Positions 55,466-60,700 of a DNA stretch of 64,000 nucleotides are shown in pieces. Source of the stretch: Planctomycetales bacterium 71-10 (GTDB taxonomy: Bacteria > Planctomycetota > Planctomycetia > Isosphaerales > Isosphaeraceae); contig MKTT01000074.1 of NCBI GenBank assembly GCA_001898385.1, forward strand, positions 92,685 through 156,684, read 5' to 3'. Below the pieces are notes generated by a model that saw nothing but the letters and a program-made list of their open reading frames with translations, was not told the DNA's origin and ran no database searches. A program made the position numbers and the translations under genes. Position 1 is the first letter of the stretch. The number at the start of each line of letters is the position of its first letter.

Positions 55466-56644
55466 TCACGACGCCGGCCGCACCGAGATCCGGAACTCGC
55501 CCGTGCCGGACAGCGGCTTCGCGTGGCGGACGGCGACGAAGTAGTCGCGAGACTCGGTCAGGCGGACGGTCATCGACAGGTTCGAGCCCTCGGCGGCGTA
55601 GAGCCGGCCGGCGGCCGAGTCGCGGTCGCGCTGGACGGAGAGGAGCAGGGGGGTGACGCCCTCGGCCCGGATCGCGAACAGGCCCGGCCTCGCGGGGCGG
55701 AAACGGTAGCGCGCCACCTGACCGGCCGCGGCGATCGCGCCGGCCTTCGGCGGGTCGCCCGCGACCAGGGCGGACTCGGCGGGCTGTTCCACACCCGCCT
55801 TCGGGTAGGCGAGGTTCGCCATCACCTTGTCCATCGGCGAGAGGGCGGCGTTGTTGGGCGACACGAACGGCGAACCGTCGGCGTAGCGGGCCAGGCCGGC
55901 GGGGAACTGGTACATCATGATCGACGACGGGTCGAACATGCCGGCCTCGATCGGCCCGCCCCGGTACACGTCGATGATCTGCTCTCGGATCGTACGCGGG
56001 CTCCAGTTGTTCGGCGGCGCGCCGAAGACGCGGTTCGCCGCCGCCTCGTCCCAGACGATCGGGCGGTCCGGCCTCATATGTTCGTGGATGAACCCGAGCG
56101 CGTGGCCGAACTCGTGGAGGATGACCCGGCTGAACTCCGCCCGCAGGAACGCCGGGTCGCTCGCCAGCGACGGGTGGAAGACCAGGTTCATCGCCGGCTG
56201 CCCGCCCTGGCGCACGACGCCCAGGCAGTCGGACCCCAGGTACGAGCAGTACGTCCCGTAGCCGATCCCCAGCTGCGGCAGCGGCAGGACGTTCACCGTG
56301 ATGTGGGCCGTCGGCTGGTCGAAGTCGAACGCGACGTCGGCGTAGTCGCTCCAGGTCGGCGCGATGTCGCGCACGGCCTGGCGGATCCGCGAGCCCCAGG
56401 CGTCCGCGCCGTTCAGGAAGCCGACGTGCAGCTTCGAGCCCGTCGGCCAGCGCTTCGACAGGTCGAGCGCCGCGCGGCTCGGCCGGGCCTCGGTCTCCGG
56501 CCGCCTCGGGTCGATCGGCCCGCCCGCCGCCTGGTTGGCGCAATAGCCCATCGCGGGCGGCAGGTCGAGAGGGGTCGCGGGGCCCCCCTCGCCTTCGGGG
56601 ATGAACGGAGACACGTCGACCGGCAGCGGATCCATGGCGGCCAT
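55466..56644 (-). CDS. Astacin-like (M12A) metallopeptidase with C-terminal pre-peptidase-like domain
   Basis: HEFGHALGFIHEHMRPDR zinc motif and SSIMMY Met-turn; C-terminal GQVARYRFRPARPGLFAIRAEG; no obvious signal peptide. Confidence 0.88.
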   Translation of the reverse strand: MAAMDPLPVDVSPFIPEGEGGPATPLDLPPAMGYCANQAAGGPIDPRRPETEARPSRAALDLSKRWPTGSKLHVGFLNGADAWGSRIRQAVRDIAPTWSDYADVAFDFDQPTAHITVNVLPLPQLGIGYGTYCSYLGSDCLGVVRQGGQPAMNLVFHPSLASDPAFLRAEFSRVILHEFGHALGFIHEHMRPDRPIVWDEAAANRVFGAPPNNWSPRTIREQIIDVYRGGPIEAGMFDPSSIMMYQFPAGLARYADGSPFVSPNNAALSPMDKVMANLAYPKAGVEQPAESALVAGDPPKAGAIAAAGQVARYRFRPARPGLFAIRAEGVTPLLLSVQRDRDSAAGRLYAAEGSNLSMTVRLTESRDYFVAVRHAKPLSGTGEFRISVRPAS

Positions 56645-56679
56645 GGGGAGACTCCTGGGGTTCGTGGCGGGGATGGGGA

Positions 56680-59097: not shown

Positions 59098-59541
59098 TCA
59101 CGAATCCGGGGATTCCTCCGCTTTCCCCGCCGATCGGGCCCGCTCCAGCAGGGCGGCGACGCGGGCGACGCAGGCGTCGAGGTCCTTCTCCACCTCGTGC
59201 CCCCACAGCCGGAGCACCGACCAACCCTCGCGGCGGAGCCTGGCGAAGTTGCGGCGGTCGCGGGCCCGGTTGCGCTCGATCTTCGCCCGCCAGAAGTCCG
59301 ACAGCTTGTGCTTCCACAGCGGGTAGCGCCAGCCGTGCCAGAAGTCGCCGTCGACGAACACCACGACGCGCGCCTTCGTGAACACGAAATCGGGCTTGCC
59401 GGGCAGGGGCTTGTAGTTGCGTCGATACCGCCAGCCCAGGCGGTGGAAGGCCGAGGAGACCTTCCGCTCAAGCGACGTGTTCTTCCCTTTCACCGCCTGC
59501 ATCGTCCGCCGGCGCTGGTCGGGCGTCAGGTTGTCGGCCAC
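59098..59541 (-). CDS. vsr: Very short patch repair endonuclease
   Basis: TPDQRRRTMQAVKGKNTSLERKVSSAFHRLGWRYRRNYKPLPGKPDFVFTKARVVVFVDGDFWHGWRY. Confidence 0.94.
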   Translation of the reverse strand: MADNLTPDQRRRTMQAVKGKNTSLERKVSSAFHRLGWRYRRNYKPLPGKPDFVFTKARVVVFVDGDFWHGWRYPLWKHKLSDFWRAKIERNRARDRRNFARLRREGWSVLRLWGHEVEKDLDACVARVAALLERARSAGKAEESPDS

Positions 59542-60700
59542 GAGGGGTCCTCCGCGCGATCGAGGCCGCGGCCGGCGTCAGGACGTGGCGGTCGATCCAT
59601 TGGACGACCGGCACGCACACGGCGTCGCCGAAGCCGAACAGGTCCTGCACCGTGTTGCCGGTCAGCGGGAAGTCGGGCGCCCCCTGCAACCGGGCGTACT
59701 CCCGGGGCGACATCCATCGCATGCGGAGCCGGCCCGCCTCCGCCACGACCACGATCTGCCGGGCGCTGCCGCCGCGAGGCGTCCGCAGGCAGCCGGCGAC
59801 GCCGTCGAAGCGGACCTCCGCACGGGTCGTGCCGTCGCGCTTGCGGCGGTAGATCGTGCCGACGAACGTCTCGCCGGCCGCGACCATCGCGTCGACCCGC
59901 TCGCGGTGGCGGTCGTGCATCATCGCCCGGTGCTTCGCCACCGCCGCCTCGTCCCACCAGTCCTGGGCGTCGTCGCGGTCGATCGCCGTGGCCACGCCCG
60001 GCGGCCGGCCCGTCGGCGCGGGGACGTCGAAGGCCAGCCAGCCCGTCGGCAGGTCGATCGACCGCATCAATTCCACCAGCCGTTTCGGCCGGACGCGGCG
60101 GTCGGCCGTCTCCAGCCGCTCGGCCCAGGCGTCGACCATCCATCCCGACGGCGACCGGGGCACGACGCCCGGCGGGTCGGCCCGGTCGTCCACGCCGACC
60201 ACGAACACCCGCGGCCGGCTCTGCGGGACGAACATGGCGGCGTCCAGCGTGAAGGCGTCCAGCCGATACCCCAGCCCCGCCAGCGCCCTCGCGGCGGCCT
60301 CGAAGTCCCGGCCCCCCGCCGAGGTCAGGAAGCCGGCCACGTTCTCCAGCAGCACCAGCGGCGGCCGACGCCCCCCCAGGGCCTCCATCGCCCGCACGAA
60401 CCCGAAGAAGGTCGACGAGTGCGACCCCTCGAACCCCCGCCCCCGCCCGGCCAGCGACAGGTCCACGCACGGGAACGACGCCGTCGCCAGCGCCGGGAGG
60501 CCCGAGATCCGGGACGCCACCTCGGCCGTCCCCCAGACGTCCCCCAGGTGGAAGTGCCCGTCGTCTCCGAACCGGCCGACGTACAACTGCCGCTTCTTGG
60601 GGTCCACGTCGTTCGCGTAGGTGCACGACCACCCCGACGCCTCGAGCGCCTCGCGCACCAGGCCGATCCCCGCGAAGAACTCGCAGAACGCCTTGCCCAT
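59468..60700 (-). CDS. dcm: DNA (cytosine-5) methyltransferase
   Basis: FCEFFAGIGLVREAL, ASFPCVDLSLAGRGRGF, LLENVAGFLTS, FVPQSRPRVFVVG, MSPREYARLQGAPDFPLTGN...GFGDAVCVPV. Confidence 0.94.
   Translation of the reverse strand: MGKAFCEFFAGIGLVREALEASGWSCTYANDVDPKKRQLYVGRFGDDGHFHLGDVWGTAEVASRISGLPALATASFPCVDLSLAGRGRGFEGSHSSTFFGFVRAMEALGGRRPPLVLLENVAGFLTSAGGRDFEAAARALAGLGYRLDAFTLDAAMFVPQSRPRVFVVGVDDRADPPGVVPRSPSGWMVDAWAERLETADRRVRPKRLVELMRSIDLPTGWLAFDVPAPTGRPPGVATAIDRDDAQDWWDEAAVAKHRAMMHDRHRERVDAMVAAGETFVGTIYRRKRDGTTRAEVRFDGVAGCLRTPRGGSARQIVVVAEAGRLRMRWMSPREYARLQGAPDFPLTGNTVQDLFGFGDAVCVPVVQWIDRHVLTPAAASIARRTPRGRQPDARPAPADDAGGEREEHVA

Follow-up and report, generated by a model that had tools for sequence, protein, structure and literature searches.

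A recurrent bacterial caspase-astacin gene pair and a proposed two-protease cascade

The window analyzed here, a 64,000-nucleotide stretch of the genome of Planctomycetales bacterium 71-10, encodes on its minus strand a MALT1/metacaspase-like caspase-Ig-TPR protein followed directly by a zymogen-type astacin metalloprotease. Caspase-astacin pairing is genuine and recurs: fifteen such pairs were found in Planctomycetota, Deltaproteobacteria, Alpha-, Beta- and Gammaproteobacteria and, more loosely, in Bacteroidota. Recurrence, adjacency, co-divergence of the partners, intact active sites and the position of a basic residue in the astacin were all established computationally. We lean towards a two-protease cascade in which the caspase would activate the astacin zymogen, the adjoining dcm and vsr genes being unrelated to it.

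Results

Two units in a run of four genes

The run consists of dcm, encoding a C5-cytosine methyltransferase (59468-60700; PF00145, E 1.5e-34), a gene for a vsr-type mismatch endonuclease (59098-59541; TIGR00632, E 1.8e-36), the caspase gene (56680..59022; PF00656, E 1.1e-7; PADLOC caspase, E 1.5e-28) and the astacin gene (55466..56644; PF01400, 25.7 bits against a cut-off of 22.5), all on the minus strand. Each was confirmed where a preliminary description had placed it, as were the 74-nt overlap of dcm with vsr and the 35-nt caspase/astacin junction (56645..56679, minus strand), with AGGAG 7 nt upstream of the astacin ATG. The 36-nt vsr/caspase gap given there is probably wrong, as translation of the caspase most likely begins at GTG 59022 rather than ATG 59061. 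Caspase homologues begin MANYAVVIG (MxNYAVVIG) and GGAGG, a good Shine-Dalgarno sequence, lies 8 nt upstream of GTG 59022; this predicted start gives a protein of 780 residues and leaves a gap of 75 nt.

The same description had proposed the run as a candidate methylation-linked conflict or cell-death module. In such a module dcm and vsr would modify or guard DNA and the proteases would kill. In this single genome the genes do run in one direction across short junctions, and neither a terminator nor a promoter was called between vsr and caspase, where RNA folding was uninformative. Comparison within the genus argues strongly the other way. The dcm-vsr genes are core to the genus, both being present in 6/6 genomes with the ~70-nt overlap kept (identity 72-84% for dcm and 84-91% for vsr), whereas the caspase occurs in three of the six (G000, G002 and G003, and not in G001, G004 or G005) and adjoins dcm-vsr only here. 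The caspase lies at 6.89 Mb and dcm-vsr at 3.99 Mb in G003, and at 2.72 Mb and 0.06 Mb in G002, separations of 2.7-2.9 Mb. G009, a member of the same family that carries three pairs, gave no dcm or vsr match at E 0.001. The gene downstream of vsr also varies among the genus members looked at, and dcm-vsr lies ~4 to 8 kb from argG in G000, G001 and G002. Every relative that has the protease genes has them apart from dcm-vsr, an outcome that the preliminary description had itself named as refuting its reading, and four-gene linkage was rejected on the separation of the two in all other genomes examined; a methylation-linked module is thus extremely improbable. The run is two unrelated units, dcm-vsr and caspase-astacin, their adjacency in this genome is local, and dcm and vsr are neighbors outside the protease pair. 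What stands of the earlier proposal, as a lead, is the pair itself, which recurs and would be of the proenzyme-plus-activating-protease kind known in bacterial immunity (Canu, PMC12799240). Note that the Vsr protein (59098-59541, minus strand) retains the PDF and FWH motifs; the Cys/His residues found around the zinc of E. coli Vsr are missing from it (GCFWHHHHC there, GDFWHGWRY here).

Recurrence and co-divergence of the pair

Pairs were found in G000, G002, G003, G009 (three), G033, G136, a deltaproteobacterial metagenome-assembled genome (MAG), Phaeobacter and Niastella, the last with one intervening gene; plasmids of Sinorhizobium terangae, Cupriavidus campinensis, Bradyrhizobium barranii and Thiodictyon carry the others, taxon sampling being uneven. 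Both gene orders occur and spacing varies: the caspase precedes the astacin in G003 and twice in G009, and the astacin comes first in G002. A short form, in which an astacin gene is followed by a ~370-aa caspase and then by a third ORF corresponding to the segment that the long form has by fusion, is carried by G009 (C409), G033, G136, the deltaproteobacterial MAG and Phaeobacter. The B. barranii plasmid has an annotated caspase followed by a trypsin-like gene, and in Thiodictyon the caspase is fused to TIR. As the Niastella astacin has an EGDI motif resembling the animal aspartate switch, that pairing may be independent.

Within the family, each long-form caspase relative found adjoins an astacin, and long-form caspases outside it (Pyrinomonadaceae, Saccharothrix, Gemmataceae and Variovorax) have no adjoining astacin. 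A single-sequence caspase search of the genome contigs gave no match and a profile search found the relatives; the long-form caspase had no match in the plasmids searched. Six pair-bearing genomes contain only 2-8 PF00656 matches each, making chance adjacency unlikely; we estimate it at a fraction of 1% for each astacin. Distances between caspases correlated with those between their partner astacins (r = 0.855 over 13 pairs, three of them diverged pairs from one genome), a value reached in none of 20,000 permutations. An astacin need not have a caspase partner: most of the 17 matches in a 392-genome sample of the phylum had no caspase beside them, and of 14 clear myroilysin-like astacins on viral contigs (IMG/VR, L207-L220) none had a caspase in the stretch examined.

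The caspase resembles MALT1 and metacaspases

The AlphaFold2 model of the caspase (pLDDT 78) shows a caspase domain, then beta sandwiches, then TPR helices. In VIA-align comparisons of model residues 1-300 the best match was MALT1 (Z 23.1, 214 residues, 2.6 A), followed by plant metacaspases (4 and 9; Z about 21) and animal caspases (Z about 20); with Z differences under 1 treated as ties, MALT1 stands clear of the rest. The protein is classed as a MALT1/metacaspase-like caspase-Ig-TPR protein. Its catalytic residues are His125 and Cys180 and its pocket residues Asp28 and Asp178 (numbering from 59022). The His-Cys dyad, a metacaspase/paracaspase C14 feature, is intact in 13/13 pairs, as is Asp at Cys-2, and both Asp28 and Asp178 are invariant in 14 caspase homologues.

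In MALT1 and metacaspases, acidic pocket residues read Arg or Lys at P1, and MALT1 cleaves after Arg/Lys. The invariant acidic residues support a predicted Arg/Lys specificity for the present caspase. Prokaryotic metacaspase/orthocaspase homologues cut after Arg/Lys (PMC3501461, PMC6426788), the orthocaspases being described as cleaving after positively charged residues (PMC6426788).

A putative activation site in the astacin

The 392-residue astacin (P0004) consists of a propeptide with Cys35, the zinc site HEFGHALGFIHEH, the Met-turn SIMMY and a C-terminal PPC-like beta domain. The zinc motif HExxHxxGxxHE is complete and columns H177, E178, H181, H187, M243 and Y245 are invariant. Its closest structures are those of myroilysin (phmmer E 6e-27), and its catalytic domain superimposes on mature myroilysin 5zjk with a TM-score of 0.75 normalized to 5zjk. 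Myroilysin is a secreted elastase (PMC4377995) whose zymogen is kept inactive by a propeptide cysteine (PMC9848320), and by analogy Cys35 probably caps the zinc as a cysteine switch. In the AlphaFold model of the astacin, built with five sequences, the propeptide had pLDDT below 35, too poor to place the cysteine on the zinc.

The mature chain of myroilysin 5zjk (213 aa) begins just past Arg39 of the 252-aa zymogen construct 5gwd, and 5zjk residue 5 aligns with P0004 residue 62. From these lengths and this alignment the mature start falls at Ala58, directly after Arg57, making Arg57|Ala58 the putative activation site. Propeptide Cys plus the basic residue were present in 10/11 scored paired astacins versus 7/25 unpaired ones (Fisher p = 0.0006, kinship being ignored). 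Four further plasmid astacins were assessed by reading; those of Sinorhizobium and Cupriavidus keep both features and those of Bradyrhizobium and Thiodictyon do not, giving 12/15 for all pairs. The basic residue alone occupies the activation position in 10/25 astacins without a caspase partner, and the site may therefore serve activation in general; given this sharing and a comparison confounded by descent, the enrichment supports rather than proves a caspase site.

The astacin might also not be the substrate at all, and might itself activate or degrade the caspase, or the two could be co-regulated proteases acting independently on other targets. Gene order and spacing do vary, and what the comparisons establish is co-divergence and adjacency. 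We consider such arrangements improbable because the basic residue is conserved where astacins are known to be activated and matches the specificity predicted for the caspase.

Localization of the partners

Tat motifs were either on both partners or on neither in the five long-form pairs: both in G002, G009a and G009b, neither in G000 and G003. The Tat signals on both partners imply that the pair would work outside the cytoplasm in G002 and in the two G009 pairs. No signal peptide was found in the pairs of G000, G003, G033, G136, the deltaproteobacterial MAG, Phaeobacter, Sinorhizobium or Bradyrhizobium. Such concordance would be expected if the whole cascade had moved together from one compartment to another, a rule broken by G009c, whose astacin carries an export signal and whose caspase does not.

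Export by Tat in some pairs is compatible both with secreted proteolysis and with self-killing. On the former reading these would be secreted or housekeeping digestive proteases, the caspase serving as the maturase of an extracellular nutrient-scavenging astacin with no immune role. Besides the doubly Tat-tagged pairs, the C-terminal PPC-like domain, common in secreted proteases, the secretion of myroilysin as an elastase (PMC4377995) and the lack of a defense island here are in keeping with it. It is harder to reconcile with the many pairs that have no signal peptide, with domain links to TIR (Thiodictyon), CHAT (L114, L126) and trypsin (Bradyrhizobium), and with a patchy, partly plasmid-borne distribution. 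A digestive role therefore seems unlikely to us, while deserving serious consideration.

Surrounding genes and other caspase neighbors

The genes around the pair weigh against an immune reading: they are housekeeping genes (argG, aspartate kinase and UDP-sugar dehydrogenase) plus one VapBC-like pair, and no defense island is present. A Phd/YefM antitoxin gene and a PIN-domain toxin gene (52768-53384, plus strand) adjoin argG. An HNH protein gene (55034-55435, plus strand) converges on the astacin gene and weakly matches PADLOC PtuB (E 1.4e-8); no PtuA-type ATPase was seen alongside. The window also contains a second caspase-like ORF (50914-52536, minus strand) with an N-terminal hydrophobic stretch, by look secreted, TGHG and QCYSGG motifs and an EF-hand-like segment; it matched PADLOC caspase at E 0.003 only and had no Pfam family.

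Related caspases have other neighbors. In Pyrinomonadaceae, an Acidobacteria MAG and Variovorax a gene of ~250 codons with no Pfam family lies directly upstream (L108 4819-5613, L109 4966-5802, L110 3154-3894 and L114 5280-5975); these are possible alternative effectors. In Bacteroidota (Chryseobacterium and Flavobacterium) an alpha/beta hydrolase-like gene lies a few nucleotides upstream (L115 4471-5979 and L121 4457-6001; DUF900, E 2.8e-7 and 0.12). CHAT proteins are encoded near related caspases in Variovorax and the deltaproteobacterial MAG, and a Saccharothrix homologue (L111 5995-9132) has a long C-terminal extension that by eye is trypsin-like. The variety of partners upstream of related caspases suggests that the effector slot may be exchangeable.

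Discussion

Proposed cascade

From these data we infer cleavage, latency, a trigger and a biological role for the two-protease cascade as follows. The astacin would be produced as a zymogen with its zinc capped by the propeptide cysteine, while the Ig and TPR parts would hold the caspase inactive and sense a trigger. Once active, the caspase would cleave behind the last propeptide residue, which is basic (Arg57 in this genome), and so free a metalloprotease of broad action. If the parallel with Canu holds, the outcome could be abortive infection or other programmed damage, which in this genome would be cytoplasmic. If the caspase does activate the astacin, bacteria have a caspase-to-metalloprotease cascade, an arrangement that we have not found described, and the exact cleavage site predicted makes a direct test possible. 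We advance more tentatively the wider proposal of a widespread undescribed system for immunity or death; in it a MALT1-like caspase would activate a cytoplasmic astacin zymogen as one version of a larger modular family with exchangeable effectors (alpha/beta hydrolases and unknown proteins).

Comparison with known systems

In the CHAT/caspase cascades of type III CRISPR systems one protease activates a further step by cleavage. The cascade proposed here would be alike in that protease cleavage activates the next step; no CRISPR, SAVED or CARF components were found among the neighbors searched against Pfam and PADLOC. Prokaryotic metacaspases and orthocaspases share with the present caspase the His-Cys dyad, Asp at Cys-2 and a caspase domain combined with TPR, whereas the Ig-like middle domains and the recurrent astacin partner set it apart. 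A 2012 survey recorded proteolysis domains in 23 metacaspase operons, and its operon section names no astacin; in the open-access literature we found no report of an astacin paired with a caspase or metacaspase. The astacin resembles myroilysin in its M12A catalytic domain, propeptide Cys and basic residue before the mature start, and differs in its caspase partner, an added C-terminal PPC-like domain and, in this genome, the lack of a signal peptide.

The closest parallel is Canu (CanABC), in which a MALT1-like Ig-fold caspase in complex with CanB switches on a pro-nuclease, giving E. coli protection against phage T4 (PMC12799240). The likeness, drawn from described features rather than from sequence comparison with CanA, lies in a MALT1-like caspase with Ig-like (in some loci TPR) parts adjoining a proenzyme effector gene, in variable locus organization and in effector activation by the caspase, demonstrated for Canu and proposed here. 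The effectors differ, that of Canu being an MBL-fold nuclease with gating loops and that of the pair an astacin zymogen; in addition, the pair is flanked by no nuclease gene on its own strand and, unlike Canu, is not known to have a defense phenotype. Downstream of the caspase, an astacin stands in place of an MBL-fold pro-nuclease, and the nearest MBL gene found encodes an alkyl sulfatase (43956-45863). The pair is therefore Canu-like in its proposed working and not a Canu system. If the proposal is true, the Canu principle of an activating protease with a silent proenzyme reaches from nucleases to proteases.
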